Assembly (NCBI GenBank): GCA_030374765.1
Contig: JARGXX010000013.1
Coordinates: 186,001-250,000 of the forward strand
DNA: 64,000 nucleotides
Reading direction: 5' to 3'
DNA from: Agarophyton chilense
Taxonomy: Eukaryota; Rhodophyta; Florideophyceae; Gracilariales; Gracilariaceae
The translations under genes were made by a program, and so were the position numbers. The notes under the pieces were generated by a model that did no database searches, was not told the DNA's origin, and saw only the letters and a program-made list of their open reading frames with translations. Positions 12,449 to 54,384 of the stretch are shown piece after piece (position 1 is the stretch's first letter; each line of letters opens with the position of its first letter).

Positions 12449-13819
12449 TTACTGCAATGAGTGCGTTCTGAATACTTCCCCTTCCATGCTCTGGTCCTCC
12501 TGTCCATTCGAACGGGCCCAGATATGCTGAATGAGGTCGTGCTTCCGAGAGAAGTGATCAACGCTACTGACGATTCTGGAGCAACGTGAAGCGACCATGG
12601 AAGACCAAGTCTGACGCGCGAATGCTTCGCTTAATTGTTCTCGAGTAACATCCAAAGACTCCCATTTGAAGCACTGACCGTAACTGAACATCGTGACCGC
12701 CTCATCATAGTGCATAAGACCGTTCATGCAGCTGTCGTACAAGTCTCTACGAGCCTCAACGACCATATTGTGTAGTATAATGCACCCCTTCATAACGAAT
12801 GCCATGTCATTTCGCTTCCACATTCTGCACGGCCTCTGCAGAATGTTGAAGCGAGCTACAAGGACGCCAAATGCGCGCTCTATATCCTTCCTGAACGCTT
12901 CTTGAGCCCTTGAGTAAGCACATTTTTGTGGGTTGGTTCCGTCCTTGATTGTTTTTGCAAAGATCGCCCAGTTTGGGTAGATGCCGTCTGCGAGATAGTA
13001 CAACATTGAACGCGTTGTGCCGTTTATCTTATACGGTAATGAAGGAGGGAACTCTCCCTCGCGTATTTTCTGCATAGTTGCTGATGTACCCAAGACGTTT
13101 AAGTCGTTACACGACCCGGGACTACCGAAATGTGCATGCCATATCCATAGATCGGCATCACAGATAGCTTCAAGGACGACTGTAGGCTTTTTTTCTTTTC
13201 CCTTTTACTGTCCAGCCCATGCGACTGGACAGTTTTTCCATTCCCAGTGCTGGCAATCTATACTACCAATGCAACCGGGGAACCCGCGTGCAGCATTGAT
13301 CTTCATGATACGTTTCAGGTCCTGCTCGGTCGGCTCGCGCATATACTCCGCACCAAACTGCTCGACAATCAAACGGCAGAACGCCTTTACAAAAAGTAGT
13401 ACAGAATCTTCTGACATTTGAAGATACTCATGTAGCGCATCTGCAGCGACTCCATATGCAAGCATGCGCAGTGCTGCGACGATACGCTGCAGTGGATGAA
13501 TTCCTCTTTTGCCCAGTCCGTCTTTCCTTCGCACAAATACTCCTTTGCCATCCAGTTGCTTGTAGACGCGGTCGAAGACGTCCCGTGGCATTCTGAACCG
13601 CCGCATAAATTTGTCTTCGCCATACTTTGCCGCGTCTTCCAAGTAGTAGCTCAAAAGGCGAGCTACTGCAGTGTCGAAGTCACGAGCGACGTTGGAACTC
13701 TTGCAGGCTCGAGACCCAGAGCGGCGGGGTAAATGTATTGTCTCTAGCCCGGGAAGTATACCGGTAGCAGCAAGGTACGACAGGGTGTCGTCCTCGCTGG
13801 ACTCGTCTGACTTCGCCAT
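12449..13819 (-). pseudogene. PIF/Harbinger DDE transposase, one premature stop
   Basis: A single frame of 457 codons runs from the ATG at 13819 to the stop at 12449, broken only by TAA at 13205-13207 (codon 205). It has the DDE_Tnp_4 / plant-transposon-protein layout. The first Asp is in GSIDCQHWEWKNCP (about residue 188), the second in SPGSCNDLNV (about 239), and the Glu in DIERAFGVLVARF (about 314), followed by GCIILHNMVVE. The stop falls between the first and second catalytic Asp, in a segment where the family usually continues without a gap, so the product would be dead unless the stop is read through. No frameshift is present. The gene ends 143 bases from the end of the convergent Myb-like gene. 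Confidence 0.9.
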
Positions 13820-15570: not shown

Positions 15571-16688
15571 TACCAAATTAGGGAGACGCAGGTAGTCGTC
15601 GCATAAATGGGTGATCCTAACATGTTGCGCACCAACTCTCCGATTCTTGCAACAAGCAACCATTTGAACTGTCCAACAGGATCCATAAAACTCTCTTTCG
15701 ATTTTCTGCTTTGTTTTTCAAATTGTCTTTGTGCTACAGTTATGAATTCTTTCTGCGCTACACCAATTTTCGGTCCTTCGTTTTCCGCACCTTCGATAAG
15801 CGGCTTTACTGCTGATCCTACACCGAGCCATTTATGTTACACCAGATTGTTTTCGTCCTAACCGCTTCCTACCGAGAACCCTTCCAACGAGGGTTCCTAT
15901 TTGCTAGACTTCGGTCTTCATGGGCAACATGCTGATGGTCTATTGGCTCAGAACTTTGACCTGACTGCACCTCCACAGGTTTATAATATATACGCCGCTG
16001 AGCGAAACTACGAACAATCGATGTAGTGGACGTCTAACTTTAGGAGGTGGATCTTTCGTGCGTCATTCGTCGTAGGCATTCCCGGGGTTGGAAGGCTAAT
16101 ATATTCCGCTCTACCTGGATCCACCAAAACTTTCGTCTGTCACTCGCCGTGATCAATCCCGTGGTAGACGGGCTAACATATATCCGCACTACCTGGTTCC
16201 ATTGGACTGTGGTTAACGACGAGTCCCTAACAAACTTTTATGATATTGATGGTATGCACCTTGGTGTGGTTCCTCGAGACACGGAACGATCACGCGATTT
16301 GCGCTTCTGCATCTTATTTGAACCTCATTCACTGTAACGAAAACGCGGTGAATCACTCGAGATAACTCGTAGCGAAATGGCACTTTTCGCGTACGAGCGA
16401 GTCCACCAGGTTTGTGGCGAGTAATAGGTTTCCCCGTAGTAACCGTTTCGACATCTTCCACTACCGAAATTACAGAGAGGTGGCATACGACAACTCTCTA
16501 TCCAATTATTCGGAAGATTTCGACCGCGGGGGTAGCTTGCAGATCAAAAGCGACATGCTCCTTTATAGCCCAAAAATGCTAAGGGCTCAGTTTTTGTACC
16601 TTCGTAAGTTTGGGTCGCAGTACAGCTTTGATCACAGATTTCAGTGCAAACGGGTGACCCGCTCTTGTAGGAGATATCTTTGCCGGTA
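15571..16688. other. No supported gene
   Basis: Short ORFs only. A 7-bp hairpin (GAACCCT with AGGGTTC) lies at 15876-15896. The minus strand at 16213-16461 and 16544-16688 is moderately open without a recognisable domain. Confidence 0.4.
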
Positions 16689-17988
16689 AAGTCTGTTTCA
16701 AAATCATATCCCTCGCGCAAAATTTCCAAAAATCGACGTTTTGGCTACAGTAAAACTAACAAAATCAGTGTGAAAAAATTTTCAAGTAAAAAAACTGTTT
16801 CAAAATCATAACCTTTTTTGCATCCTTTTTATTCTAACGCGAGTTCAGTAGTTTATTTTTGCTCCTCTAGCCTGTATAACACTTATACAACGCTTTGGCA
16901 TTGATTCTATAAAAGGATTGATAGCATTACAGTCAATCTTTTCCCAGCAATCTTTGATACAATTCTTCAGATCAAAAACTGTATCAAATTGCCTTCCTTG
17001 CCCATAAACCATTCGGGCCAACATTCCCCAAATGTTTTCGATAGGGTTGAGGTCAGGAGAGCGCGCAGGCCATTCCATAACCGACATATTTAGACTATTG
17101 AACCATTGTTTCATAGAATTAGACTTATGCACAGGTGCATTATCTTGCTGAAAAATGAATTCTTCTCCGTGCATACAGTATGAAAAAGGTAAAAGATAGT
17201 TGTCTAGAACCTCAGCATACTTCTCAGAGTTCATTGTATTTTCAGCAAAAGCCATATCAGTTGCTCCTTTCGTGGAGATTCCAGCCCAAACCATTACTGC
17301 TGCGCCTCCTGAATGCCTAGTGACAAATTTCTTCTTTTCTTTTCATAGATCATGCCCATAAAATTTAAAGCAATCTGGACCATCAAGGTTAAACTTTTTT
17401 TCGTCGGAAAAGATAACATTATTCCATTCCGTTTTCCAATTAGTTTTTTGAGCACACCATTAAACTCGATTTTTCTCGTGAATATCTTTTAAAACAAAAG
17501 TTTTCCTCATTTTTGTGTACTTGAACAAATTTTGATGGTTGACTTTAAGCCAAATTGTAGATTGTGATAGAAGCAAATTTAGATTTTCGACAATTTCCCC
17601 GCAAGATGAAGTATTGCGGCATAGTTTTTGCTTAATTCCACGCTTATTGGCCGGGGATAGTGACGTAGGACGGCCGGTTGAACGCTTTTTTCCGTATGTA
17701 GCGGAGTTTTTGATGAAGTTGCTGATTGTTTTTGGGCTGCGCTTGAGTTTTCGGGCTATGTCTGCTGGAATCATACCCTGACCTACTAATTCCATGATTT
17801 CCAGCTGTTCAGAGCGTGTCAGAGGTGCACCACGAGCCATAATTGAGCGAATGATTGTATAAAGGATATACTTTTGAAACAGTGTTATTGACTTAGTGGT
17901 TTTTATTTGTTGTGAAATGTGCTCTACAGTACGTGAAATGCCTTTTTGGCGCAGTTTTTGTAAAGGGATATGTTTTTGAAACGCACTG
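16689..17988 (-). mobile_element. Tc1/mariner element with IR/DR ends, 1300 bp
   Basis: The element is flanked by TA at 16687-16688 and 17989-17990. Outer repeats begin AAGTCTGTTTCAAAATCATA on the left and, inverted, CAGTGCGTTTCAAAAACATA on the right. A second, inner copy of the same motif occurs about 104 bases inside each end (about 16793-16819 and, inverted, about 17858-17885). Two direct repeats within each inverted end is the IR/DR arrangement known from Sleeping Beauty-like Tc1 elements. The transposase is encoded on the minus strand. Confidence 0.88.
16845..17840 (-). pseudogene. Tc1/mariner transposase, two nonsense codons
   Basis: One frame from the ATG at 17840 to the stop at 16845, about 330 codons and close to the family norm, is broken by a TAA at 17460-17462 and a TGA near 17345-17350 without any frameshift. 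The N-terminus is a paired helix-turn-helix (LTRSEQLEIMELVGQGMIPA), followed by a GRPTS AT-hook-like linker. The catalytic triad is visible: Asp in VIFSDEKKFNLDG, Asp in FQQDNAPVHKS, and Glu in SPDLNPIENIWGML. The family excises and inserts at TA sites. Two stops make this copy dead, but it is much fresher than the copy at 14111-15363. Confidence 0.9.
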
Positions 17989-25806: not shown

Positions 25807-26415
25807 TGTCGTACAATCACCTATGGGGTATGCTACTGTCTTGTCTCGGGAGCGTGGTGACGCTCAACTATAGAAGGTACACTTAATAAACCTCGATGGT
25901 AAAAGGGCACCGTGAAAACCCGCAGGGAAAAACGGCGGGGCAACTAGCCTATACCGTGTAGGTGAAGGATGGTAGCCGTCGACGCGCGGGAAAGCCTGTG
26001 TGGTACTTGAGAAACAATGAACCAAAATATATAGTTGTGACCCAAGTGGTGCCTGTCTTAATGAAATTAGGGTGAGGGAGATGCAATTTCCGTTATGCAG
26101 TGGACAACACTCTCCACATCACCCGGGAGGTGCCAGCGAGGCACGGTCTCTGACCTAGTGTCAAAGACCTGGCCAACACAGGCTACAGTGCCAGGTGACC
26201 TCTAAACTACTGTAATAAAATAAATATAAATAAAATTACAATTACTAACAATTACTCAATCAGAAGGTACATTTCAACCCTACACGTAGCTGACAACACC
26301 TAGATGGTAGCTCGCCCGGAGCTGCATGGCCGATGATCCCTCGCATCCATCACCTACCAGGTCAGTGTAGTATATCGACAACCTCAAAGGTCAAACCTTC
26401 TGCCACTATACGACA
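25807..26415 (-). repeat. Outer element 3' LTR (609 bp)
   Basis: Bounded by TGTCGTA and TACGACA. It lacks the duplicated GGGAGCGTGGTGACGCT unit that is present twice in the partner LTR at 46288-46920, which explains most of the 24-bp length difference. Confidence 0.95.
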
Positions 26416-28326: not shown

Positions 28327-30355
28327 TCAAGTGCGCAGATGTACAGCTCTGGGCTCTCGGGCTGAGGTGCCTCCCTCAATGCGATGATAAAGCGTTTCAG
28401 GTGCTACCGTAATACGGTCAATTGATATCGTATTCGGTATTTCATCTTGTTCAACCATAACGGTGTGGTCTGATGCGTTCAATACCTTATAAGGTTCCAC
28501 TGATTTGGGTAGAAGCTTCGAATTGATATCCCTATCAATAGCTTCATCGTCTGCTTCATCACCCAGTCGTGATCTTTTACCTGAAGGTGGGTTGTATATG
28601 TAGACATATTGTCCCGAAGATACAGAGACCACTCTGGTTACCCTACGATCGTAGTCGGCCTTAAACCGCTTCTGGGCTGCAGTGAGGCGGCTCTCTGTAT
28701 GTTTGAGAGCCCTCCTCAACATCACAAGGGTATTTCGCTTAACCTCGGCCGGGGTCAGTGCGCCAGCTGCAGGGCTGGTGGTATGATCTCCCTGCACTAT
28801 AATACCTGGGGGGGTGTCGCGATAGAACCAAATCAAAGGGAGTGGTCTGCGTTGACCGGTGTACCTGAAGGTTATAGGAGTAGGTGAGCGGTTGCACGAG
28901 CTCATCCCACCCAGTTTAGTGCTCTTCCGTATAGTATAGTAGCCTTGATACCAATGTGTGGTTAAAGCGCTCGACCTGTCCGTTTGTCTGCGGGTGGTAG
29001 GCAGTCGTGAAATAGTGCTTGATACCCAAGAGGTTACAGACTGCTTCGAAGAACTTCGATGTCAGGTTTGAACCATTATCGGTGAGTAAGTACAGTGGTC
29101 CACCATACGGGTAGACCCAATTGTTGAGGAACGCGATCGCCAGCGTGGTTGACTTCGTCTCCTTTAAAGGTATCGCTCTCGTGAGCTTCGAGGACCTGTC
29201 GGTGGTCACTAAAATGTGCTGATACCCGTTCTTGGTCTTGGGAAGTGGTCCTAGAAGGTCTATCGCAACAAACTACAGCGGACCCGCTGCTGGAAACAGC
29301 TTGAAATACTTTCGATGCATTCGAATACCACCGCGGGTACGAACACAGGATTTACATTGAACTACAAAGGTATAGACATCATGGGCCATATGAGGCCAAT
29401 AGAACTGTTGTCTCAAGATGTAATACATCCTGGTGGCTTTGGGGAGTTCTGATAGTCAAGAGTAGTGCGCGAGATACAAGACTCTCGGGCGCAGCGCCTT
29501 CGGAACCACCTTTTGAAGGCTACCATCCAAGGTTGACCTTCTCACGATGTACCCATTGTGGTCCACATCAAACGGTGATCCTTTGAAACCAATTTGGTCA
29601 GCCAGGGTTCTGCAGTACGCATCCTGGGCCTGTTCTCGTAAAAATTTCTCTCCGTCTACGGGCATGACGTTCGTTTCCTCTAGGGTCAGTATCTTCGTTG
29701 CTATGTCGGTGTTCCGCAAGGCGCCTTCTTCAGGTAAGTCCCAACATCCTTCTAGGTGTTCGCCGGTACCATTTTGGATTGATGACATCAAAAAGCAAGG
29801 GATATCATCTTCCACAGGTTCTGTCTCTAACCCTGAGGTGTTTAAGCTTTACATAGCATCAGCTATGCTGTGCTTGATACCTGGACGGTACTGTACGTCG
29901 TATTCAAACTCCGACAGTCTCAACCTCCAACGGGCAAGTCTACCAGACGCATCTGCGAGTCCGTGGATCCACGTTCAGGCGTCGTGGTCCGTGCGCAACG
30001 TAAAGCGCTCACCATACAGGTATAGACGGAGCATCAACATGCTCCACACTACTGCTAGACATTCCTTCTCGGTTACCGTGTAGTTCTGCTCCGCCTCATT
30101 CATAGCGTGGCTCCAGTATCCTATAGGTAATTTGTCTCCGTTGTGCTGCTCCTGCATGAGACAACAACTGATTTGGGCATGGGATGCATCTGTATCCAGC
30201 GTGTACGGTAGACCTGTTTTCGGTAACGCTAAGATTGGCCGCGACAACAGCGCTCCTTTCAATTCCTCAAAGGTATCCATTTCGTCGTTCGATAGATTCT
30301 CAAACCATTCAGATTCACCTTTCTGGAGCTTCTTGTTGAGGGGAGCCGCTATTTT
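28327..30355 (-). pseudogene. Outer element pol, 3' half: end of RT, RNase H, integrase
   Basis: This continues the RT frame interrupted at 42051. It reads APLNKKLQKGESEW and the RNase H start TLDTDASHAQISCCLMQE with TEKECLAVVW and TLRTDHDA. The integrase follows: a zinc region near 29.4 kb, core Asp in FVAIDLLGPLP, Asp in LLTDNGSNL and Glu in GQVERFNHTL. A frameshift near 28.8 kb separates the C-terminal integrase part (28327-28905). In-frame stops occur at 29975-29977 and near 29.85, 29.46, 29.27 and 28.92 kb, so no working polyprotein can be made. Confidence 0.9.
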
Positions 30356-31072
30356 TGTAGTGCAACGCCAAGGGCGGCGGAAACACACGAAGATGTCCGA
30401 GTCTTCCTCCAAGGAGGGTAGCACGGCGACGGAGCCTATCCGGAGTGAACACGACTAAGTCGGGGTGTAAGGCCGAGGTTCACCGGCACGCCAAGCGGGG
30501 AGAGTGCGGGATGCTAGAAGGGAGCAGACCAGGTATGAGCTGTATTCCACGGGAGTGGGCAAGTGATAAAGGGGGGACCACCCAGTGGGGGCGATCGGGG
30601 GCATGGGCCACGAGAGGCAAAAGAAATATGTAGTAAACCCAATACTGGGGCGAGAACACGGCAGTGGTATGAAAGATATACACGCTAACAGCGGTGAGTC
30701 TCCTGTTGACGCAGGGTGGACAAGTCTACCGTTGGGGAGGTTTACTGAGTGTCAGGGCGAGATCGCCCTGGCACTATATAGTGTAGAATACTGTAAAGAG
30801 CTCCCTAACCTAGTGTAATAAAGCTAAATAAATAGAGAAATATCCAGCTATGCTGTGCCAACCTGTCCTGGGCCACCCGTGGTACACGTGGGTAAGTCAC
30901 ACCCGAATCGGGGCCACGGCGCACGGCCGCCGGTGCACTTCGCGTACAACGCGTATACACCTGGCTACGCCAGCCCGCTAGTAGCGGTATTACTCATAGA
31001 TCTCACAAGTATCGCCCGAGGCGGAAAAACAACCAAGTCCTGGAAAACTGCCCTCACGAGGGTTGCACTTCA
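30356..31072 (-). repeat. Inner element 3' LTR (717 bp)
   Basis: Compared with the 5' LTR it lacks a 76-bp segment (present at about 41636-41711). The break lies in a CCGTT / TGGTT context, consistent with a short-repeat deletion here or an insertion there. The AATAAA-like AT-rich part lies near 30.83 kb. ORFs inside the LTR are repeated in the other LTR and are not genes. Confidence 0.95.
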
Positions 31073-31083
31073 TATCCCCCTCC
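31073..31083 (-). other. Polypurine tract of inner element
   Basis: The minus strand reads AGGAGGGGATA directly before the 3' LTR, as expected for second-strand priming. Confidence 0.7.
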
Positions 31084-31341
31084 TGAGGCGCGAGTACGAC
31101 ATCCGCGATGGTGGGCGACGCGCCGAGACGAATGCATAAGAGTGCAACCAGCTCGCTGGGATCCACTTCATCCGATGCCAACAAACGCAGTTTGGCAAAA
31201 CTCCAGTCTCCTGGCAACAACCGTTCTCAACGTTCCATCTCAACCGAGTCCGCATCCTTGCGTGCCAGTCCTCCGATTCCTCGGCATCGTCTTTCGCTTC
31301 GCCGGTCTCCTCTTCCGGTCATCCGGCCTCTTCGCTCACCG

Positions 31342-33044
31342 ATGAGCAACCAAAACAATCAACCAAACCCTCTCCCTGCGGGGTACTTCTCCGGCTTCCG
31401 GTCCGCTCCGCTTCCGCAAAGCGCGTCATCGGCTGCGCCGCAGATTCCTATCGCGAACGTGGCTGCTGCTCCGTATGGAATGTTCCCCCCGAGAGGGTGG
31501 CCGCCATACGACATGCCTGTCGGGTGCCATCCTGGGCATCATGCGTCCGTTCCCCGGCTTGCGCCGTGGTTCCACCCGATTGCGGTGTTAAACGAAGCGC
31601 TCATAGCGATGTACACCGATGGAAACGGGATGCTTCCGGGCGATTTTCCGGCCGTGGCGATAACTTCGTTCGATTGGCGACGCCGCGTAGCGGTTCCGGT
31701 CCACGCTGTGGCGCGCCGGGGTAGTGAAACCTCGGCTTCCGCTCATGTGGACTTCGTCCTTCTTGGCCATCAACGGCTTCGCCGGGCTCCTTTCGAATAT
31801 CCCATCCCCGATGGTCTCGGCACCGACATTCGGCTTTACCGCACTCAAGGTGAGATTGGTTACGTCGACCGCCGGGCGGGTTTGGAAACACTCTCGTGGA
31901 GGGGCATCCCGACAGCAGGGCAAGAGGCCATGTGTGGACGCGACCGATTATCCGGGCAGAATTCCGCTACATGCGTCGACTTGCGCGGGCCAACTTCCTC
32001 GCCCTGATCCGCTTCGAGCGTCGAGCACGATCCCGATTCGGGTATTTGGTCCCGTATCAGAACGTGGAGATCGAACGCTTTCGCGTGGCCGACCGACGGG
32101 GTCGCTATGTCCTCATTCCACCGTTGTGGTCGAACCTCGAGGCCTGCCGGGGCTGTTACATCGAGCTGCCACCAGTCATCACGTATTACGGTTCGTACCT
32201 CATCGAGGATCCCGAGTCCGGACTGTGGTCCGTGGTGATTACCGAATGGGCAGTCCGCGCGGCGGTATTCATCCTCTGGGAGGTGTATGACCAGTACAGA
32301 CTGTGGTTCCTCCCGTTCCGGTTGAGGTCCGCGATTCGCAGCCTGGACCTGAGCCTCCCCCTTGGTGGAGTAACCAACGCCGAAGAAGTGGCGGGTCTTC
32401 TCGATTACATCGACCAGTTGGACTGGACCACCGTTCCGATTGAACAAAGCGGGCGCACCGTGGGTAGCCGGGGTCAGGACCTGTCACCAGGAAGGCGTAC
32501 TCCCTTGGGAGGTGATTTCGTATACTTTGACCCGTGGGAAGGGCACGAAATCTCCGCGGAGGAAGCGAAAGAACTCCGGTTTGCACCACGCCATATCTCC
32601 GAGGGGCATCCGATCGGTTTCGTGAACGCGGATGGATATTACCACGTCTACGACGGCGACGATCCAATGGTGGACAACGAACCCGACGACGGAGAAGCGT
32701 ACGCTGAGGCGGAGTTCGAAAGATCCGAAGCGGAAGGTCCCTATAACGCGGGGACGCCAGCCACGCCTTACGTGGATTTTGATAACCCCGCGGGGGCTGG
32801 GTCCGAGTACGCGGTAGCTGGACCACCTCCGGTTCCACCGGTGAATCTCCCAAGTGGTGGGGCGTCCGCCCCAGGCAATGCGAGCTCCGCTCCGGCGGGT
32901 CAAGCGGCCGTGATCTCCCAGTTTCTGCGACAGGTGGGGCTGGGGACCAACGCAGCGAGTGGCGATGTTGCCGCGATGCGCGAGGCCTTGATCACCCGCC
33001 TCCAGGGAGGTAACCAACCCGGGGATGGTGAGCCAAACCCGTGA
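31342..33044 (+). pseudogene. Long ORF antisense to gag-pol in the inner retrotransposon, one frameshift
   Basis: The ATG at 31342 (MSNQNNQPNPLPAG) opens a plus-strand frame to about 31.92 kb. Coding then continues one frame over to the stop at 33044, giving about 567 codons in all. The first half is Pro/Ala/Ser-rich, then has folded-looking segments (SFDWRRRVAVPVHAVARRG, FVLLGHQRLRRAPFEYP). The second half has hydrophobic, Trp/Tyr-rich segments (WSVVITEWAVRAAVFILWEV), a strongly acidic stretch (about 32.65-32.74 kb) and a Gly/Ala/Pro tail ending in QLLR-type helices. Composition and the lack of stops over 1.7 kb argue for a real protein. I recognise no family. The single shift near 31.90-31.93 kb may be decay or programmed. 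It lies in the 2-kb gap between the pol stop and the 3' LTR. Confidence 0.6.
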
Positions 33045-33223
33045 CGGGGCACGCGATCCCGATGGGGAGTTTTCTCTTGTGACTTAGAGTAATATCCCGA
33101 GTGCTCGGTATTCCATCGATAGCTTCGAATGAAACCCAAGTGACTTGTGTAACCCAAAACCTTCCTTCACTAGCCTGTTCTCAAGCAAACCTACTTCTCT
33201 TTTCTCTTCCACAGAGGTGGGTG

Positions 33224-36200
33224 TTATCCCACTTGGGCTTTAACAACCGATGCCGGGATTCCCGTCCGCGTTCTGCGGTGATATGACACCACCTTCGAAC
33301 GTGGGAGATGTTCCATCGGCTCATCCGAATCCAATTCGGGCCCTAAACCGTACCAACGGACGAGGTATTGAATATAACCATCCGGATGGTATGAGTGCTC
33401 CACTATGTGGTCGACCACGAACTCCTTCCCGTAGACTTCCGGCCCTTGCGGTGTACGCGTCACCGGACCAAACCGGTGTACGTCCGCCGGTGCGTGTGGG
33501 CTACTGTGCCCTTCCCCCGAAAGGTCCATGGGTTGGCGTTGCCTTTCCATGCCCTGCGTAGGGGAACGAACCGGGTTCCGGGTTGCCTTGGCCGCTTGGC
33601 GGGTTGCTTCCTCCAAGGCGTCATGACGAAGAGCGTCAGCTCGACGGCTTCGGCCGGAGGCCTTCCCGTGGGGCAATTCTCCCAGTTCTTGGGTCGGAAT
33701 GCTTTCCGAGAGTTCTCGTGCAGAGGCCACCCTTCGAGGGAACGCGGACTCATCCCAAGGCTGGGTTTCGCGGTCGCGTTCCGCGAGCCGTCGGGGTGAA
33801 ATCCGTCGCAACGGTGCTGGACTTGACGCGGGAGGCGGTTTCATCACGGGGCGTCGTGCCTTGCCGGGTGAGCCGCCTTGGTCGTTGATTGGCGTGTCTC
33901 CCGAGCCGGGTGTCGTCTGGTCACGTGACACGTCCGGCTGATGGCTGGGAGTACTTCGCGTCGTGCTGCGTTCCGCCTCCTCACGTGAGGGCGTGTGCAA
34001 CGGCGCTGCCGGTATGTTTGCTCGCTTGGGCGACACAGTACCGCGACGGGCGTGCAACTCCGGGTCAACCGTGCCTTCCTCACCAACGGGCAGCGAAGTG
34101 CGCGGCGAGGAACCCCTGCGGGGAGCGAGTTCGTCCTCAACTATCCCTTTCGAAGGTTCAACTTCACTCGGCGACGAGTTGCTTCCGTCCTTGACGGGCA
34201 CATTCTCCGGGGTGACCGGTGCGCCTTCGACAACGCTGTCGGCGTCAACCGAGACACTCGGAGTGCGTCCGCCACTGCGCGCGGGTTCTGAACCAGCATC
34301 AAGCGTGCTGGGTGTGAATCTCCCGTCTGCTACGGTGTGCTTGCCCGGCTTAGTCGGTGTGTCCTGCCGTACAGTACGAGGAACCACTTCCGATCGATTC
34401 GGCCTAGAGGGGCCTGCGAGGGCGTGCTCTAAGTTTTCCAGCGTAGCTGGTGTCGACGAACCGTGACCCACGGGCTGCGGGTCAACGCTCGACGGTATAG
34501 CCGGTCCAGTATCGCGAAGGCGAACAGCATCCTGCGACGATTTCGGTTTCGCTTCGGCGAGAGGGTTTCCACTACGTGGTGCGTCCTGTCGAGTAGAGTC
34601 CCCGTGGGGAGTGCGATCAGACTCAGATGCGGTAGCGCTTCCCATAGAGGGTTCAGCAACGGCTGTAGCGCGCAAATGCGGAGATGGCACGTCGGTAGAC
34701 GGGACGTCCGGATCACCGTTGTTCTTGCTGGTGTGTCCAGGAGTCCGTGCACCACGGTTGTCATGACGCGACGAAGCGGTTTCCGTCTCTCGACGAGAGT
34801 TATGAGCCTCCTCCCCCTCCTGAGACGGAGCGGCATGGGGAGTGGTTGAAACGCCCAACGGGCGGGGGTAGACACCGCGCCGTGGCGTGAGAGAAGAGAG
34901 GCCATTCTGACCTTGGTCCGATAAGATCGGCAAGTCAGAGAGTCCCCGGGTAGGGTGTGGTAACGCAGAAGGTCTGGAAACCACGGCAGTGGGCTGAGCC
35001 ACTGTTGTGTGCCGAGCACCATCATCCTCAGAGAGGGATTGTTGACCCATTTCGGTTACTTCCAACGTCCGTGGCCGGACGAGTACAACGCGGTCGCGGG
35101 AGATTCACTCATGAGCGTCGACAATTTACACCCCGATGGTGTCGTCTTCCACTGAAATGACCTTGTAAGGACCGTCCGCGACGGAAGAAAGCTTGTGCTT
35201 CTTTTCCTTTTCAGGGTTCCAGTACTCCTTACGGACGAAGACGAAGTCACCGGCTTTGATTGGCGGGGCCTCACCGCGTACGCGAGAGTCGAAATCACGC
35301 TTGTAAGCGGCTTGGGCACGAGCCATCGAGCTTCGGGCGACCGGGATCAGCTTCGTAAGCCACTCTTTCCACCTGTGGCGATAATCCTTCACGGAACGGA
35401 ACGCATCCAGCGTGGGCTGGGGTTCTAACGCGACAGCGGGCGGAGGGCGGGACAAGACCGGTTCGAATGGAGTCAAGCCCGTAGTACGGTGTACCTGCGT
35501 ATTGTACGCGAACGTCAAGGCGTCGGTATATAAATCCCATGTCTTTGGGTGGTCGGCCCCGTAAGAACGGAGAGACGCTAATAGCGTTCGGTTACACCGC
35601 TCCACTTGCCCATTACACTGGGGGTGATAGGTCGTTGTGAACAGGTTCTTGATGTCAAGAATCCTGCACACGTCCTCGAAGAATCGCGATGCGAACTGTT
35701 TTCCGTTATCGGATAGAAGATTAACCGGCGGGCCGTAGACGAATACTCAATGGGTTACAAATGCTTGTGCAACCGTGAAAGCGGATATCTTCCGTAGAGG
35801 TACGGTCCGAAACAGTTTTGAGAAACGATCCGTGATGACGAGTAAAAACTTATGTCCACGTCGTGTGGTGGGGAGCTTACCGAGGATGTCAATGGCGACA
35901 AACTCGAGAGGAGCCCGTGCCGGGAATAGTTTCAACTTCGTTGAGTACTTGCGAAGTTTCACCCGACTCTTAGCACATTCGGTACAAAACCGCACAGTTG
36001 CGTAGCAATCCACCGCCATGGCGGGCCAATAGAAATTCCTTCGCAAAGTGAGGTAGAGCTTCCGTCCACCGGCGTGTCCACCAAGTTTCGCATAGTGCGA
36101 TAGATGCAAAACTATAGACTGTAGAGTATGCGGCACCACGACTTGTGGGGATGACTGAACCGTCCTGACGAGGTATCCAAAATCGTTCACCTCGAAAGGG

Positions 36201-39075
36201 AGTTGTGTACCGCCATTAAGCCAGGCGCGAATCTTCGTACAGAAGGGGTCACCCTGCTGTTCTCGGACCATCTCCTCCGGGGGTATCGGCACAAAATTAC
36301 CCGGCGGGGGTTTCTCTGAATCGTCCGAGACGAGCAATGCGTCAATATCATCATCCGATTCCGGGCTTTCGTTCCATTTATCGTGTAACCAATCCGGGTC
36401 CCCCGGTGTTCCATCGTCTACGACGAAGCAAGGTATATCCTCGTCATCGACGGTTAGAGCTTCCCCATTCGTGGGTAAACGCGAGAGCGCGTCCGCTTGC
36501 GCGTTCTGAGTGCCCTTCTTGTAGATCACTTCAAAGTCATATTCCGCGAGGCGGGGTCTCCAACGCATTAAGCGGCCTGACGGCTCCGAGATGGTCATGT
36601 GCCATCGTAGGGACGAGTGATCCGTTTAAACGGTAAAGTTCACACCCATGAGGTAGGGGCGTAGTGTAGAGAGGGCCCACACAACTGCGAGGCACTCCTT
36701 CTCCGACACGGAGTAGTTCCGCTCGTGGACATTGAGCGAGCGTGACCAGTACCCAATGGGTTTGCGTTCTCCTTCGGGAGTAGTTTGAAAGAGCGCACAG
36801 CCTACCTGGTAGTCGCTAGAGTCCGTGTCCACGGAAAACGGTAGTCCGGGTTTCGGTAACGATAGAATCGGTGCTGATGTGACAGCCTCCCTAAGGGAGT
36901 TAAAAGCATCCGTTTGGGCGGACGTAAAGGGGTCCAGTTTAGGTGGTTGACATTTCCGCAGAAGCGCGTTCAAGGGGGCCGCGATGTCAGCGAAGTTAGG
37001 GATAAACCGTCGGTAGACGTTGACCAATCCTAGAAAGGAGCGCAGTTCCGTCTGGGTAGCGGGTTCTTTCGCCTTGCGAATGGACCTCACTCGAGCTTCC
37101 TCGATCATTACACGTCCCGGACGGATAATGTGCCCGAGATACTTCACAGTATCGGTAAAGAACTCACATTTCCTCAGTCTGAGGGATATTCCAGCATCAC
37201 GTAGCGTGGTCATTATGTCCCTGACATGGGTGAGATGGTCATACAGATTGTCTGAGAATACAATGATATCGTCCAAATAGACGAGGCAAGTACGCCACTT
37301 AAAGAGGGCCAACACAATGTCGATAGCACGCTGAAAGGTAGCGGGAGCATTGGTTAGACCAAAAGGCATCCGTTTGAAACGGTAGAGTCCCGAGTGACAG
37401 ACAAACGCAGTCTCATCTTGGTCCTCCTCCCTAACGGGAACCTGCCAATATCCCCAATTGGCGTCCAAAGCCGTGAACACGGCAGCAGTGCCGAGAGAGT
37501 CGATGTACTCATCCATTCGTGGGATCGGATACACGTCCTTGACGGTAACATCATTCAAGCGACGGTAGTCGATGCAAAAGCGCCAGGACCCATCGGGTTT
37601 CGGAGCCAGTACCACTGGGGATTCCCACGGCGACTGAGCCGGTTCGATCACTCCAGCTCGGAGCATTTTGTCCACTTGGAACTGTTCCTCTTCTCGAGCC
37701 TTGGGGCCTGCCCTGTAAGGGTGTTGAGCCACCGGTTGGGTGTTCGGCAATAAATCTATCCAGTGTTCCGTTGTATTTATCTCACCAAGAGAGCCATCCC
37801 ACATTGTGGTAAACTCCCGTAATATCTCACGCAGACTTTCACGGTGTGACTCCGGTACATGACCGAGGTCGAGTTCCTCGAGTTCTTTCATTGGGTCTAC
37901 CCGGTCGTAACTCGTCGGAACGGGCTTCTTTTCTGTTTCGGCAGGTTGCGATTCCGAATCATTCGGTGATTGGACGGCAGCTTCCTCCCCCTCCTTAGAG
38001 TGAACGAGACCGAGGACTTCGGCAGCGGTCAGCCTAGTGGGGACCATCGCGGTGGGGTGAGGCATTACCGATCCAATAACTTGGTTTTTAACCAGTGACT
38101 GGGGGGTGGAGCCCAGATTGGCAATGAGCACGGTGAACGGCTTGTCTGGGACAATCTGCGCGACTCCATTCGCCACGGCGAGTTGATATCCATCGTACAG
38201 AGATGAGAGAGGCTGAATGACTCGTAAACCGTGTTGACGGGAAATGACACGCACCCATACTTGGGACTCTGGCGGGATTCAGACAGAAGCAGCCACGCGG
38301 AGCTTGGTAGACTCCCGAGAAGCGGGTGGAGGTTCCTGCGCGGCAGGGAGCGGTACGTGCTTCTTGGAGGCACGACGCAGTGGACGACGGACAATCGGGA
38401 CCGACGAGCCGTCTTCCATCTCAACACGCTTTAAGCGGGGCCTTATGGAGTCAACGAATCTGTCACAGAAGTCACATCCCAAGATGATGGGGGCAGCCAA
38501 TTTACGGCATACAATAAAGTCGAGTTTCACCACGAAGGAGCCCAAGCGAACGACGAGAGCGACGCTTCCAACCGTTGAAAACGTGTTGTTATTCGCGTCC
38601 GCGACGTCGGGCGCCACGCCAAGGCGGATCTGAGACCACAAGGGTGGGGGCAGCAACGAATCTACGATGAAATTCGGACCAGCACCTGTGTCCAAAACAG
38701 TAAGGACTCGAACCATAAACTAGGTAGAAAGGCCAAGGTCGGCATACACCTTGTAATTGCGCTTGGCCATTACTAAGACTCTATCCGGGAACCGGTGGTT
38801 AAGAACACGTGTCCACGGTCGACACAGAACACCAAAGTGTTCAGAGTCCACGTCTGAGACGGCCTGTTTCCTCGTGAGGATTGTGACCGGGGAGCGAGGC
38901 GGAGACGCCTCGGGCGTCATCAAACTCACTGTTGGGGACGCCTCTCCCGAAGGGGAGACTCCCAAAATCAGTTTTCCTGAGTCCCATCCGCCTGGGGCGG
39001 GGCCTCAGAATCCTGAACCACTAGCAATGGGGCGCCAGCGGCGGGGTTTGAAGGAACGGGGCGGTGGTCGGGAGC
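33224..39075 (-). pseudogene. Inner element pol: protease-RT-RNase H-integrase-linker-chromodomain
   Basis: One frame, -1 relative to gag, runs about 5.8 kb with no frameshift but seven stops, at 39005, 38720, 38279, 36626, 35747, 35126 and 35105 (lower base of each). The protease motif VLDTGAGPNFI is near 38.68 kb. RT has FCIDYRRLN, the VYLDD active site near 37.27 kb and MPFGLTNAPATFQ. RNase H has SVDTDSSDYQVGCALF. Integrase has an HHCC zinc region and catalytic Asp (AIDILGKLP), Asp (LLSDNGKQF) and Glu (GQVERCNRT). A Ser/Pro/Arg/Glu-rich linker of about 500 residues follows (35065 to about 33430), then a chromodomain at about 33427-33275 (FVVDHIVEHSYHPDGYIQYL) and a short tail. Chromodomain elements can target heterochromatin. 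That is family knowledge. Confidence 0.92.
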
Positions 39076-41097
39076 CTACTCGGCAGGGTAAAGCAACGCA
39101 TTGCGCGGTTTCGCCTCCGGAATATTCCGTGAAAAATCGATCTTCGCTCGAAGATACGACGTCGTCGGAACAATCCGCTTTTCCACTGGGGTCAACGCCT
39201 CATAATTACCGATTACTCGAGCTACTTCCCTCATGGTGAGGATACAGTCCGGTGAAATGTGACCGTGTTCGTAGCATATGTGGCATATGAGTCCCGGGCG
39301 TAAGGGCTGCAAACCGGAGCGAGCATCCGTGAACTTCACCGCTTGGCGGGTATCCTTCCATCCAGGGCGACTCTGTCGGAGCGCACCGTTTGAATACGGG
39401 ATGCGAGGTCCGTGAACACGGGGAGAGTCTGCGTACAGCAGGGGTCCATCCTGGGCCGTGTCATATGAGTCGTCCGTCGTAGACGGTAGTTCGGTTGTCG
39501 GGACCGAATGGATATCGCTTCGGGCGAAGTGCACGTTGTCGTACTCCTGTTGGGGGCGCTCAATCGCAACCAGCGATAGGGATGGCGACTTCGTTTCCAT
39601 CACCAACGCCTTGGCGGTTCGCGACCTGTGTCCGGGGGCACGAGCTCTTAAAGCCTCACCTTCCGCTTGCGCGTGTTGGACCAACTCCAGATACGTGGTC
39701 TTCCTTCGGTCTTCCCGGTAACGGGCCACGAGTGTTCGGATAGCGGGGTCCAGTCCATCGATGAACATGGTGCAGCGCTCTCCGGCGGAGTGTACGTTCC
39801 CACTACGGTGGAAAGCCTTGTTCAGGCGCACCAAGAATTCGGTTTCCGTTTCTCCAGACTTCTGGCGCGTATCGCGAAGAGCGAGAATGGCCGACTGAAT
39901 CACGTGATTAGTGGCGTAGGACCTCAAGAGGTATTGTACTGCTTCTGGCCAGCAGGTTACCCCTCCTTCGGAGGCTCTAAACGAACCTCTTACAGAGTTG
40001 TATTGATCCTCGGCGAGGCCTTTCATAAAGTATGGGAGTGCAATAAACGCCTGTCCTTCGGTCATACCGAGAATATCCGCTTCGGCGACGAACCTCGCAA
40101 GGAAATCCAACACCAAAATGGGGTCTTCTCCAGAAAAGTTCTGGTTCCTGAGGGACAGTTGCATACGCTTTATGCAATCCTTCACTCTACCCGTGCCACG
40201 GGGCGTGCGATCCAAAGAGGAGTTCTCTAGCCGATAGTATCGGTAAGAAACCAACTTCTTGTACAGGGGGTTGGTGCATTTCAGCTCCTTCAACCCGGAG
40301 TGTTTCCTTCCTTTCTCGCGGGCGCGGATCACACCTTGGGTGGCAGACGACCGTTTAGAACGGGATGAACGCCTGCGATGGCCATCGTCAGAAGACGAAT
40401 CTGACGAGTCCGACCCATTTGAATGGTGAGAGCCACGCGACGACCGTGAGGAGTTCGACGAGTCCGAGTCATCGCTGTCACGCTTTCCACGCCGACGGCG
40501 GGTATCGTCCCTTTTCCTCTCGTGTTTCGCTTGGTGCGACACAGCAACCGGCTTCTCCGGGACGTCTTCCATCAAGATGGTTTGCTCTAACGTCTGGAGA
40601 CGGGCGCTAACACGATTGAATCGGGTCTCGACACCTTCCACGTAAGCGGCGGGACCACCAAAACATTCCAACAGGGTGTTGACGTCCGCCCGCAACAAGC
40701 GGAGGTCGTCAACCACTTCCTTCATAGAAGAGCCATCACACCTGGAACGCAGGGCTTCGAACTCTTCCACGAAGGCATTGTGCGCTTCCCGCATTACGCG
40801 GATCTTCTGCCTCACACTTGAGTTGGTGTCGATGTGGAACTCGTTTTTCTGGGCCTTTTCGTCGGCAGGAGCCGGGTCATCCACGGCAGGGGCCGGTCCA
40901 GCACCAGAATTGGGTCCATTCTTCGACGCCTTAGGAAGTAGCTTGTTGTTCTTGGAGGAGTTCGACCCCTTACTCTTGCCTTTCGGAGCGGCTTGAGGTA
41001 ACGGCGGGGGAACCCTTCCAGGGTCCGCAGGCACCACGTCATTGACGGAACGGCTCCGCGTGATCGCGGGTTCCGCTTCCGACGGTAGTCGTGACAT
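39076..41097 (-). CDS. gag: Inner element Gag (capsid, nucleocapsid)
   Basis: The 673-residue product is intact from the ATG at 41097 (MSRLPSEAEP) to TAG at 39076. The frame is open 21 codons upstream, but those lack an ATG start. Its N-terminal part is Pro/Lys-rich, followed by a helical probable coiled coil and an Arg/Ser/Asp-rich block (about 40.33-40.55 kb). The retrotransposon gag capsid-like domain comes next (about 39.6-40.2 kb, with PYFMKGLAEDQY and SGETETEFLVRLNKAFH). A CCHC zinc knuckle CHICYEHGHISPDC lies near 39.25-39.29 kb. It packages element RNA in virus-like particles. Pol follows in the -1 frame, which stays open for at least some 30 codons upstream of the gag stop, so a frameshift, not readthrough, would join them. 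Confidence 0.9.
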   Translation of the reverse strand: MSRLPSEAEPAITRSRSVNDVVPADPGRVPPPLPQAAPKGKSKGSNSSKNNKLLPKASKNGPNSGAGPAPAVDDPAPADEKAQKNEFHIDTNSSVRQKIRVMREAHNAFVEEFEALRSRCDGSSMKEVVDDLRLLRADVNTLLECFGGPAAYVEGVETRFNRVSARLQTLEQTILMEDVPEKPVAVSHQAKHERKRDDTRRRRGKRDSDDSDSSNSSRSSRGSHHSNGSDSSDSSSDDGHRRRSSRSKRSSATQGVIRAREKGRKHSGLKELKCTNPLYKKLVSYRYYRLENSSLDRTPRGTGRVKDCIKRMQLSLRNQNFSGEDPILVLDFLARFVAEADILGMTEGQAFIALPYFMKGLAEDQYNSVRGSFRASEGGVTCWPEAVQYLLRSYATNHVIQSAILALRDTRQKSGETETEFLVRLNKAFHRSGNVHSAGERCTMFIDGLDPAIRTLVARYREDRRKTTYLELVQHAQAEGEALRARAPGHRSRTAKALVMETKSPSLSLVAIERPQQEYDNVHFARSDIHSVPTTELPSTTDDSYDTAQDGPLLYADSPRVHGPRIPYSNGALRQSRPGWKDTRQAVKFTDARSGLQPLRPGLICHICYEHGHISPDCILTMREVARVIGNYEALTPVEKRIVPTTSYLRAKIDFSRNIPEAKPRNALLYPAE

Positions 41098-41238
41098 GGT
41101 TGTAGCGTTGACCACTAAGAATAGGACAACAAAAGCTTCCACCAAGTGGGTCCAAACCAAGAAATTGGAAAGCAGATCTCGACGAGAGAAGACAGCACAG
41201 CAATGTGAAAAACAAACAAACCAGGTCCCCCTAGCCTT

Positions 41239-41254
41239 CTAAGTCGGGAGACCA
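41239..41254 (-). other. Primer-binding site of inner element
   Basis: The minus strand reads TGGTCTCCCGACTTAG, three bases after the 5' LTR. It begins TGG, complementary to a tRNA CCA end. The identical 16 bases serve the outer element at 46269-46284. The donor tRNA is not identified. Confidence 0.8.
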
Positions 41255-41257
41255 GTT

Positions 41258-42050
41258 TGTAGTGCAACGCCAAGGGCGGTGGAAACACACGAAGATGTCC
41301 GAGTCTTCCTCCAAGGAGGGTAGCACGGCGACGGAGCCTCTCCGGAGTGAACACGACTAAGTCGGGGTGTAAGGCCGAGGTTCACCGGCACGCCAAGCGG
41401 GGAGTGTGCGGGATGCTAGAAGGGAGCAGACCAGGTATGAACTGTATTCCACGGGAGTGGGCTAGTGATAAAGGGGGGACCACCCAGTGGGGGCGATCGG
41501 GGCATGGGCCACGAGAGCCAAAAGAAATATGTAGCAAACCCAGTACTGGGGCGAGAACACGGCAGTGGTATGAAAGATATACACGCTAACAGCGGTGAGT
41601 CTCCTGTTGACGCAGGGTGGATAAGTCTACCGTTAGTAACGCGGCTTCACCTCCGTAGAGTGTGGAAGACTCGCGAAAGCGGAAAAAGACTCAGAGCCAA
41701 GAACCCTGGTTGGGGAGGTTTACTGAGTGTCAGGGCGAGATCGCTCTGGCACTATATAGTGTAGAATACTGTAAAGAGCTCCCTTACCTAGTGTAATAAA
41801 GCTAAATAAATAGAGAAATATCCAGCTATGCTGTGCCAACCTGTCCTGGGCCACCCGTGGTACACGTGGGTAAGTCACACCCGAATCGGGGCCACGGCGC
41901 ACGGCCGCCGGTGCACTTCGCCTACAACGCGTATACACCTGGCTACGCCAGCCCGCTAGTAGCGGTATTACCCATAGATCTCACAAGTATCGCCCGAGGC
42001 GGAAAAACAACCAAGTCCTGGAAAACGGCCCTCATGAGGGTTGCACTTCA
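41258..42050 (-). repeat. Inner element 5' LTR (793 bp)
   Basis: Same ends as the 3' LTR, plus the additional 76 bases at about 41636-41711. It is followed by the target duplication at 42051-42055. Confidence 0.95.
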
Positions 42051-43816
42051 ATTTTCGCGAATCCCTTCACGAAGCGACGATAAACGTTACATAAACCTAC
42101 AAATGATCGTACGTCTGTCTGGGATCGTAGCAACTTGACCTCCTGTACGGCTCTAGTGTTGCTTGGCGCAACCTCTAGTGTACCAAGGCCTATGATGTGG
42201 CCCAGGTATTCAACCGTTCTGGTAAAGAAGACGCATTTGCGTAGCTTCAGCGTCACCCCCGCCTCAGCTAGGAGGGTTAGTACGGTGCGTACGCGTGCAA
42301 AGTGCTCTTCTACCGATCTGGAATAGATGATTACATCATCGATGTATACCAAGGCGGTTGTCCGTTTAACCTTCGAAAGGTTGATGTCCAGTTCTCTTTG
42401 AAAGGTGGCTGGAGCATTGCGTAACCCGAACGGCATCCGCGTGAAGCGAAACAAACCTGCATGGCACGTGAAGGTCGTTTTTTCTCGATCTTCCTCACCT
42501 ACGGGTACCTGCGAATAACCACAATTGGCATCCGACGTGTTGAATATCTGCGCATCTCCCAAGGAGTCGATGCACACATCCATTCTAGGTATCGGGTACG
42601 AATCCCTGATGGTCACGCTATAGAGTCTCCTGTGGTCCACACAAAACCTCACACGGTTATCCCTTTTCTTCTGAACCAGAACCACTGGACTAGCCCAATC
42701 GGAGTTGGCTGGTTCAATTACCCCTTTTTGGAGTATTCGATCCACTTCTTTGAGTTCTATCTCTCTCGCCTTCGGACCTGCTCGGTATGGTTGCTGGTAA
42801 ATTGGCTTCGAGTCAGGGAGGAGCTCGATGCGATTCTGTGTGGCCTTAATTTGGCCCAGATGGCCTGGCCACATGGTTTCGAACTCCTCCGGAAGGTCGA
42901 GAATACGGCCGCGCAGTCCGCCGTTATCTTCACCGATCTGGACTGTATCTTGCCATTGCCTCTCAGATACAGGTTCCTTATCTTTGTGTACCGATGCCTT
43001 ATCGGTTAGCTTTGCTTCCAAGTTGGTATTTATCGATACCTTTGTGGATGTGGATGCATTTGCGCACCCCCCTTCCTTATCGAAGGCGACCTCGCCGAGA
43101 TCAGTGTGAGCTACAGTGAAGACCCCTTGTGGTGCCGGTAGTGCGATACCAACATTGGTATTTTTCGGCAACTTCACGTCGTGACTGCTGACGTTGCTGA
43201 GACACACCTTAAAGAGTTGATTTGGGATGTTTTCGACAATCCCGTTGGCCATCAAGGTGAGGTGTCGATGTGCTAACCTCGGATAGTTTTGAAGTATGAC
43301 CAGCCCGGGGGTCGCACACGACACCGGTACCAATATTTGGTGCATTGGCGGGATAAGAACCTGTTTGGTAATGCGCACCTTGTTGGAGACCGTTTTGGTG
43401 GATATCCTCTTCTTCGGTTTGACGAACCACCCCCGTTTGGTTTCAGTATTACCTAAAATGGCAACTAGTCCCCCGTGACGTATGGCGACGGTATGGGAAC
43501 CAGGAAGGATTGCTTTGACATGTCTGTCGATGAATTTCGTACCTAGTAGGCAGTCCGTTGGTAAACGGTCTACACCAAGAATTTCAGTATTACCTTGAGG
43601 TGTCCGAGCTGCACCACAGTGGTGAGCATACCTCGAAGGTTTAATGGGCGCTAATTTGCATCCACCAGCGGGTTGTTGTCGGGAGGCTGGCTCAAGTTCT
43701 GAAGTACCGCCTCAGGTATGACGCGGGAGTTCAGGACGTTTGGGCCGGCCCCCGTATCCAACAATCAGGTGACCGGAACCGCAAGGCGATGGGAAAAACA
43801 CATTGAAGCACGTAAT
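42051..43816 (-). pseudogene. Outer element pol, 5' half: protease and RT, cut by the inner element
   Basis: The protease motif LLDTGAGPNVLN lies near 43.75 kb in a region with several stops (43.43-43.8 kb). The RT frame is open from 43378: FCVDHRRLYSVT, MPFGLRNAPATFQ and the active-site motif ALVYIDDVIIYS. It ends at VYRRFVKGFAKI where the inner 5' LTR begins. The remaining residues of that ORF come from the LTR. The continuation is at 30355 downward. A substitution in the usual LDAN motif (here TSDANCGYSQV) also marks decay. Confidence 0.92.
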
Positions 43817-46287: not shown

Positions 46288-46920
46288 TGTCGTACCATCA
46301 CCTCTGGGGTATGCTACTGTCTTGTCTCGGGAGCGTAGTGACGCTCACCCGTAGGGAGCGTGGTGACGCTAAACCTTAGAAGGTAGACTTAATAAACGTC
46401 GATGGTAACAGGGCACCGTGAAAACTCGCAGGGACAAACGGCGGGGCAACTAGCCTATACCGTGTAGGTAAAGGATGGTAGGCGTCGACGCGCGGGAAAA
46501 ACTGTGTAGTAGTTGAAAACAATGAACCAAAAGATATAGTTGTGACCCAAGTGGAGCCTGTGTGTATCAGATTAGGATGGGGAAGGTGCAGTTCCCTATA
46601 TGCAGTGGACAGCACTCTCCACATTACCTGGGAGGTGCCAGCAAGGCACGGTCTCTGACCTAGTGCCAGAGACCTGGCCAGCACTGGCTACAGTGCCGGG
46701 TGGCCACTCAACTACTGTACTAACATAAATATAATTAATATTACAATTACTAACAATTACTCAACCAGAAGGTACATGTCAACACAACACGTGGCAGAAA
46801 ACACCTAGATGACAGCTCGCTCGGAGCTGCATGGCCGATGACCTCTCGCATCCATCATCTAGCAGGTCAGTGTAGTACATCGACAACCTCAAAGGTCAAA
46901 CCTTCTGCCACTATACGACA
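46288..46920 (-). repeat. Outer element 5' LTR (633 bp)
   Basis: TGTCGTA to TACGACA, followed by CTTCG. It contains two near-identical GGGAGCGTRGTGACGCT units in tandem (about 46330-46372) where the 3' LTR has one. Confidence 0.95.
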
Positions 46921-53562: not shown

Positions 53563-54384
53563 TTACGTAGCTTGCTTTTTGATCAGTTCTTGAACCTGTT
53601 TATATCTTGGGCAGCGTGGGGTATGATCATTGATTACACCCGTAGCCTGCAAGTGAGCGTAAATGATAGTACTACCAACAAACTTGAAATTCTTCTTCTT
53701 TAGGTCTTTTGCGATTTCGTCAGAGAGCTCATTCTTCGAAAGCCACACACCAGCCTCGCAATTTCGTTGAGGAACATATCCAACTCGGTTCCAGAAATAG
53801 TGTGCAAGACCAACACCCTCCTCTCTCAACGCAATGACAGCCTTTGCGTTATTGATAGCAGCACGGATCTTTAGCTTGTTTCGAATGATGGACGGGTCCT
53901 GTTGTAATCGCACTGCGTCCTCCTCGGTCATATCTGCAATTAGATCAACGTCAAAGTTGTGGAATGCGTTCGCAAAAGCCTCTCGCTTGCGGAGCACAGT
54001 CAGCCAACTGAGACCAGCTTGGAACGTCTCAAGCAGGAGAAACTCAAACATTTTCTTGTCGTCGTAGACGGGAACGCCCCATTCCTCGTCGTGATACTTG
54101 ATGTAGTCAGGCGCTGATAGACACCATTCGCATCGAGTTTCCTTCCTTGGTCGCTTTGGTGCGGGAGGCATTGCGGAAGTTCTCAAAACAGTGACAGATG
54201 ATGCGGAGGGTGTGGCTGGTGTGAGGCGGAATGTTGGCGCGATCAATGCAATGCAGCAGTTGCTGCTTGAAAGTGGGAATTGCTGGAAGCCAATGGTTTG
54301 ATTGCCAAAGCGCAATGAGGATGAGACCTGGAAAGCGCAAGAGATGTTCGCTAGTGGCGCTCGAGCGGCGCCGAGGGAGAACAT
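53563..54384 (-). CDS. TAG: DNA-3-methyladenine glycosylase I
   Basis: The 273-residue intronless protein removes 3-methyladenine from alkylated DNA, starting base-excision repair. Residues 84-260 match bacterial Tag. RCEWC carries a zinc Cys (85), YHDEEWGVP carries zinc His98, and HTPRCPRY carries zinc His254 and Cys258. LLLETFQAGLSW has Glu119 at the position of E. coli Glu38, and Trp127 in the base pocket. Bacterial Tag is about 187 residues. The extra N-terminal 80 residues (MFSLGAARAPLANI) are Ser/Ala-rich with few acids, like an organelle transit peptide. They are followed by PKRPRK, a possible nuclear signal, just after an internal Met (72). I chose the ATG at 54384. The frame two codons further up begins with GTG. 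Tag is mainly bacterial, so a bacterial or organellar origin is likely. Confidence 0.93.
   Translation of the reverse strand: MFSLGAARAPLANISCAFQVSSSLRFGNQTIGFQQFPLSSSNCCIALIAPTFRLTPATPSASSVTVLRTSAMPPAPKRPRKETRCEWCLSAPDYIKYHDEEWGVPVYDDKKMFEFLLLETFQAGLSWLTVLRKREAFANAFHNFDVDLIADMTEEDAVRLQQDPSIIRNKLKIRAAINNAKAVIALREEGVGLAHYFWNRVGYVPQRNCEAGVWLSKNELSDEIAKDLKKKNFKFVGSTIIYAHLQATGVINDHTPRCPRYKQVQELIKKQAT

Follow-up and report, generated by a model that had tools for sequence, protein, structure and literature searches.

We find that a chromodomain-bearing Ty3/gypsy retrotransposon of the red alga Agarophyton chilense carries, between the end of pol and its 3' LTR, a long open reading frame on the strand opposite gag-pol, here called ORFX, whose position, strand, openness and constraint at the protein level hold across five sub-families of one genome. 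Weighing the evidence set out below, we consider it probable that ORFX is a resident antisense gene of a Gracilariaceae chromodomain Ty3/gypsy group, and that it encodes a putative accessory protein binding nucleic acid or ribonucleoprotein. The window referred to throughout is the whole 64,000-nucleotide stretch of contig JARGXX010000013.1 that was analysed (C13:186001-250000), the genome searched comprises 79.8 Mb in 135 contigs, and the features of the window are collected in Table 1.

Table 1. Features of the window, in order of position (coordinates are those of the window).
Feature	Position	Strand	Remarks
734-aa open frame	3053-5257	+	Cys/Gly-rich repeats, then kelch repeats
Transposase in two pieces	12449-13819	-	PF04827 match
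Decayed old ORFX-like remnant	15742-16665	+	Nearest to sub-family E, 26-38% identity
Fragments presumed to be Tc1/mariner-like	16845-17294 and 17460-17840		Follow the ORFX-like remnant; assigned by look
Target-site duplication, left copy	30351-30355		ATTTT, read from sequence
3' LTR	30356-31072	-	TG...CA
Palindromic TATA-like site in LTR	30772-30783		CACTATATAGTG; present in the window and in 3 of 3 sub-family A loci
CACGTG palindrome in LTR	30885-30890		Lies 223 nt before the ATG of ORFX
Polypurine tract	31073-31084	-	AGGAGGGGGATA in sense; between LTR and ORFX start
ORFX, antisense gene	31108-33044	+	One frameshift near 31.9 kb in the window copy
Pol tail	33224-35065	-	Pro/Ser-rich linker, then terminal chromodomain (PF00385, 24.7 bits; cut-off 25.1)
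Integrase region	35126-36598	-	In-frame stops in the window copy
Reverse transcriptase and RNase H	36626-38254	-	PF00078, PF17919, PF17917
Protease region	38279-38716	-	DTGAG, which we take to be the protease motif; no Pfam match
gag, 694 aa	39076-41160	-	Weak Retrotrans_gag match below cut-off; CCHC-like knuckle read from sequence
Probable primer binding site	41240-41254	-	Complement ends ...CCA, 3 nt off the LTR; inferred from sequence
5' LTR	41258-42050	-
Target-site duplication, right copy	42051-42055		ATTTT, read from sequence
Methyladenine glycosylase	53563-54390	-	PF03352; probable host gene
BMS1/TSR1 C-terminal domain	61150-63906	-	PF04950; probable host gene

The carrier of ORFX is an LTR retrotransposon on the minus strand (30356-42050), in keeping with the initial annotation, which had described an antisense frame in a red-algal Ty3/gypsy element. 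Like chromoviruses, it has gag, reverse transcriptase-RNase H and integrase, and a chromodomain stands at the C-terminal end of pol. The LTRs end in TG...CA and differ from each other by 23 mismatches and 78 gap positions in a 796-column alignment, and pol occupies one frame with several in-frame stops, which leaves this copy with a broken pol. The PF00385 score of the pol tail exceeds the cut-off in sub-family B (30.8 bits) and lies below it in the window copy, which belongs to sub-family A, and in sub-family D (22.0 bits); the piece from locus L002, whose frame ends inside the domain, gave no chromodomain match at E<=0.01. To our knowledge, standard chromoviruses lack an antisense gene of the kind described here. 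The last pol stop, at 33224, is separated from the 3' LTR by 2.15 kb, close to the 2 kb or so first estimated. As in aORF-3R genes (antisense additional ORFs between pol and the 3' LTR), ORFX lies between the 3' LTR end at 31072 and this stop, runs antisense to gag-pol, and recurs many times in the genome with its protein conserved, the copies counted being the ORFX places themselves.

At the window locus, ORFX consists of two overlapping plus-strand open frames (31108-32007 and 31896-33044) that differ in phase, which places a frameshift near 31.9 kb. Intact sisters of sub-family A have a single 645-aa frame beginning at the ATG equivalent to 31108, and as judged from these sisters the frameshift is a lesion of the window copy, intact copies existing elsewhere in the genome. 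The initial annotation was correct in proposing a plus-strand frame with a single frameshift, but its start at 31342 and its length of about 567 codons have to be replaced by those of the sister copies. Between the end of ORFX in the window and the convergent pol stop there is a gap of 180 bp.

Sister copies are abundant in the same genome. Four ORFX queries matched at least 108, at least 72, at least 150 and at least 77 places, and these merge (within 2.5 kb) into at least 384 distinct places, counting fragments, spread over 60 contigs, a lower bound because the genome searches score the best candidates only. The places matched by the Gracilariopsis chorda protein P0006 (at least 77) share none with the other three lists among the matches listed, and 54 of the 77 have no stop across the aligned ~470 codons. 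We examined 64 loci (L001-L064, where L001 is the window copy, L032 is the same place as L034 and L051-L053 match identically), mostly the best-scoring ones, which biases the set towards intact copies; within it, 38 loci have one uninterrupted frame of 590 codons or more, which encodes 550-655 aa from the first ATG. The copies fall into five sub-families, namely A, that of the window, and B to E, whose proteins are 37-52% identical to that of A. Reverse transcriptase identity to A is 82% for B (87% for a second piece), 79% for C and 76% for E, with no match for D in the stretch fetched, and E is the most distant from A in reverse transcriptase as it is in ORFX.

The arrangement of ORFX is the same in all copies in which a pol tail was matched. 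At 62 of the 64 loci the pol tail follows ORFX and is encoded on the other strand, and at none do the two share a strand, the other two loci (L031 and L064) having no pol-tail match within the fetched stretch; the pol-tail queries were taken from the window, L032, L033 and L042, and these loci match themselves. A degenerate polypurine-tract motif is found just upstream of ORFX at 58 of the 64 loci, and the distance from the start of the tract to the ATG is 34, 96, 34, 45 and 80 nt in the five sub-family representatives. Three like-scoring copies on C68 (L051, L052 and L053, at 3138214, 3147411 and 3156608) recur at a spacing of 9197 bases and a pair of ORFX places on C77 lies 9249 apart; both sets look like tandem elements with shared LTRs.

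Between sub-families, ORFX diverges in the manner of a protein under constraint. With at most five members per sub-family compared, pN is 0.31-0.47 versus a pS of 0.66-0.74, and differences per codon position amount to 0.32-0.50 at first, 0.28-0.43 at second and 0.58-0.68 at third positions; the corresponding dN/dS of about 0.17-0.32 is rough, because synonymous sites are near saturation and some dS values are undefined. Since a protein-guided alignment could favour the third-position result, we repeated the comparison on a 270-codon core aligned as nucleotides only, using for these pairs and for the frame comparison below one representative per sub-family (L002, L034, L031, L041 and L064); in all 10 pairs the third position again varied most (chi-square p 4e-14 to 5.2e-5). 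That third positions vary most between sub-families indicates a selected protein and not a GC shadow. Of the two signs by which the initial annotation would have recognised such a shadow, sister copies with many stops and a lack of codon-position bias, neither was found. That the five representatives show no stop in the ORFX frame carries no evidential weight, since intact copies were chosen.

The initial annotation had itself raised the prospect of a GC-driven shadow, and the suspicion that ORFX is a chance open frame or the reflection of a sense-strand gene draws on two observations: long sense-strand frames stand opposite ORFX (298 aa in A and 411 aa in D), and N/S inside sub-families is as high as 0.50-0.79 (within- and between-sub-family ratios were computed without L047, L049, L052, L053 and L058 in D and without L032, the duplicate of L034, in B). 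For shared versus single variants, N/S is 0.79 versus 0.70 in A and 0.50 versus 0.57 in D. Recent copies within sub-families appear to decay almost freely, close to neutrality, and purifying selection, evident between sub-families, leaves a weak signal inside them. In a six-frame comparison, however, it is the ORFX frame that tops identity in all 10 pairs (35-57%); the runner-up is a sense frame with 31-50% identity and 11-28 stops per sequence, whereas the sense frame with the long open stretches reaches 19-33%. Moreover, synonymous-codon shuffles of ORFX (n=300) regenerate such stretches, with 298 aa reached in 30% of shuffles and 411 aa in 7%, the exception being a 240-aa sense frame in A that is reached in 0.7%. 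Taken together, identity per frame, synonymous shuffles and codon positions lead us to reject a sense-strand gene or its shadow, and we give almost no credence to chance or base composition as the origin of the frame. The same constraint bears on the proposal that the antisense RNA rather than a protein is what matters, with double-stranded RNA limiting the element. Such a role is suggested as a possible function of plant antisense ORFs in the available text of PMC7264820, but an RNA function alone predicts no constraint on amino acids, which makes this account very unlikely; an RNA effect in addition to the ORFX protein may exist.

The predicted protein begins with about 150 poorly conserved residues (with a pI that exceeds 9 for the representatives of A, B and C and is 7.0 for D and 6.0 for E), followed by a conserved region at residues ~185-525, a variable one at 526-600 and a conserved motif near the C-terminus at 601-625. 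In all five representatives the core has a net charge of +4 to +9 and the tail is acidic, with a net charge of -9 to -24. Arginine makes up 10 of the 29 invariant core residues versus 41 of the 341 residues across the core (hypergeometric p 8e-4), and neither His nor Cys occurs among the 29. This arginine-rich core suggests binding to nucleic acid or ribonucleoprotein, although the weakly basic core of the sub-family E representative (net +4, segment pI 6.7) and the finding of no domain match in support of nucleic-acid binding stand against that reading.

Database searches agree with the initial annotation that the protein matches no known family. Neither window half nor any of 19 relatives had a match in Pfam (hmmscan; 17 relatives at E<=1 and two at E<=10), and four proteins each searched against NCBIfam and PHROGs gave no family match. 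Two peptide patterns each, taken from alignment A1, retrieved no relative from viral contigs or prokaryote genomes, and the L064 protein as query retrieved none from plasmids or phages. Sequence searches of the PDB yielded no match at E<=10 with alignment A1 and, with alignment A2, two matches at chance level (E 0.7 and 4.1), both in the acidic tail. Homology to the element's own gag was considered separately and rejected (hhalign probability 0.1).

The interval between pol and the 3' LTR is where retroviruses keep env, which would suit not a regulator but a structural protein, an envelope-like one or one for movement from cell to cell, and the pit connections of red algae are a conceivable route for cell-to-cell spread. 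An envelope-like gene would be expected in sense orientation and with a transmembrane segment; ORFX is antisense, and its five representatives contain no transmembrane-like stretch, the best 19-residue Kyte-Doolittle mean being 1.57. Antisense placement would also seem ill-suited to a particle component made together with gag-pol, and the env-like genes of plant elements are in sense orientation according to the available text of PMC7264820. We therefore regard a structural or movement role as unlikely.

Relatives of ORFX extend beyond A. chilense. Protein searches, in part limited to scoring the candidates with the most words in common, returned among the matches listed BWQ96_03215 (617 aa) and BWQ96_10156 (565 aa) of Gracilariopsis chorda, FGB62_50g12 (419 aa) of Gracilaria domingensis, a 245-aa A. 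chilense fragment named "unnamed protein product" that is 100% identical to the genome along its entire length, and two further proteins; the G. chorda and G. domingensis relatives are known here from protein sequences alone. A midpoint-rooted ORFX tree of 18 rows, from which P0004 was left out, has a single main split (support 100/100) with sub-family E, BWQ96_10156 and the two further proteins on one side and sub-families A to D, BWQ96_03215 (beside D, 100/99) and FGB62_50g12 on the other. Because A. chilense and G. chorda occur on both sides, two ORFX lineages predate the split of the genera, unless elements moved between species. The ORFX-like remnant elsewhere in the window, which matches sub-family E with an E-value of 3e-17 in a search restricted to that stretch, suggests ORFX lineages that are older still.

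An older Ty3-like element encloses the ORFX-bearing one (LTR-like repeats at 25807-26415 and 46288-46920, 86% identical), and its reverse transcriptase pieces are 46-53% identical to that of the inner element. No ORFX match was found in its 26.4-28.3 kb part, from which it follows that ORFX may be the gain of one element group, as would fit a captured host gene, for example one captured long ago, before the family radiated. That a few copies captured it recently is at odds with the occurrence of ORFX in five diverged sub-families and three genera, and capture more generally with the absence of any same-strand case of ORFX and pol among the 64 loci; overall, we hold capture to be quite unlikely.

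If ORFX is a resident antisense gene, its expression would depend on the neighbouring LTR. The start of ORFX adjoins this LTR, so that its promoter should sit in the 3' LTR. CACGTG occurs within 700 nt upstream of ORFX at 37 of 38 intact loci (it is absent in L054), mostly 180-265 nt from the ATG, where counting bases predicts a chance of about 0.17 for 700 nt; as copies of one sub-family share descent, these amount to about five independent cases. The palindromic TATA-like site of sub-family A was found at none of nine loci examined from other sub-families. Either CACGTG or the TATA-like site may serve both directions. A poly-A-like motif 46-86 nt past the ORFX stop, seen at 10 of 12 loci examined, carries little weight because four loose motifs were allowed. 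The ORFX mRNA would start inside the 3' LTR, cross U3 and the polypurine tract on its way back into the element, and end ahead of the convergent pol stop. Being antisense to the genomic RNA, it would yield protein from integrated DNA only and never from packaged RNA. Least certain are the later steps, in which the protein might bind nucleic acid or the ribonucleoprotein of the element and tune the latter's expression or its steps in the nucleus, perhaps working like Grande GENE23, the antisense proteins of Retand or HTLV-1 HBZ.

Antisense genes in a comparable place are described for Retand elements, a non-chromovirus lineage reported in the available text of PMC11963269 to carry an antisense ORF with a TRP28 domain in 97% of clusters, from flowering plants. 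In the parts of PMC11963269 and PMC7264820 at hand, the Retand antisense ORFs (TRP28, PF04195; Grande gene23 is among these antisense genes) resemble ORFX in lying antisense between pol and the 3' LTR and in being present in most copies and across species, and DNA binding is suggested for them. Unlike the TRP28 proteins, ORFX has no match to PF04195 or any other Pfam family among 19 members, and unlike Retand its carrier has a chromodomain and a red-algal host. Outside plants, Boty of Botrytis and Sclerotinia also has an antisense ORF between pol and the 3' LTR, a likeness drawn from its description in the available text of PMC7264820, which likewise places an antisense promoter of HTLV-1 inside the 3' LTR, where that of ORFX would be. 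The antisense protein of this virus, HBZ, is described as nuclear and as having a role in the virus life cycle in the accessible part of PMC11963269. ORFX shares the anatomy of these antisense genes and may work as they do; so far as searches can tell, it falls outside their protein families. HBZ belongs to the bZIP proteins, and ORFX differs from it, too, in having no Pfam match.

These parallels lead us to a more tentative idea, which we rate as possible though doubtful: that unrelated retroelements (deltaretroviruses, Retand, Boty and red-algal chromodomain elements) independently hold an antisense gene at the 3' LTR, and that ORFX would act after integration, as a copy-number sensor for example, with a two-way LTR promoter and an undescribed fold. 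Under such convergence, the antisense gene would be kept because its strand is readable only from integrated DNA.

Plants, a fungus and some retroviruses are already known to have antisense genes beside the 3' LTR (PMC7264820 and PMC11963269, in their available text), and among titles and abstract openings of the open-licence literature we found none describing an antisense ORF for LTR elements of red algae. What ORFX adds is a large protein family from a lineage only distantly related to land plants, with hundreds of copies in one genome, a constant place in the element and strong constraint between its old sub-families. Members of the family are carried in seaweed annotations as hypothetical proteins, which should serve as a warning to users of those annotations, and the family as a whole offers an independent data set for asking what the antisense genes of retrotransposons do.
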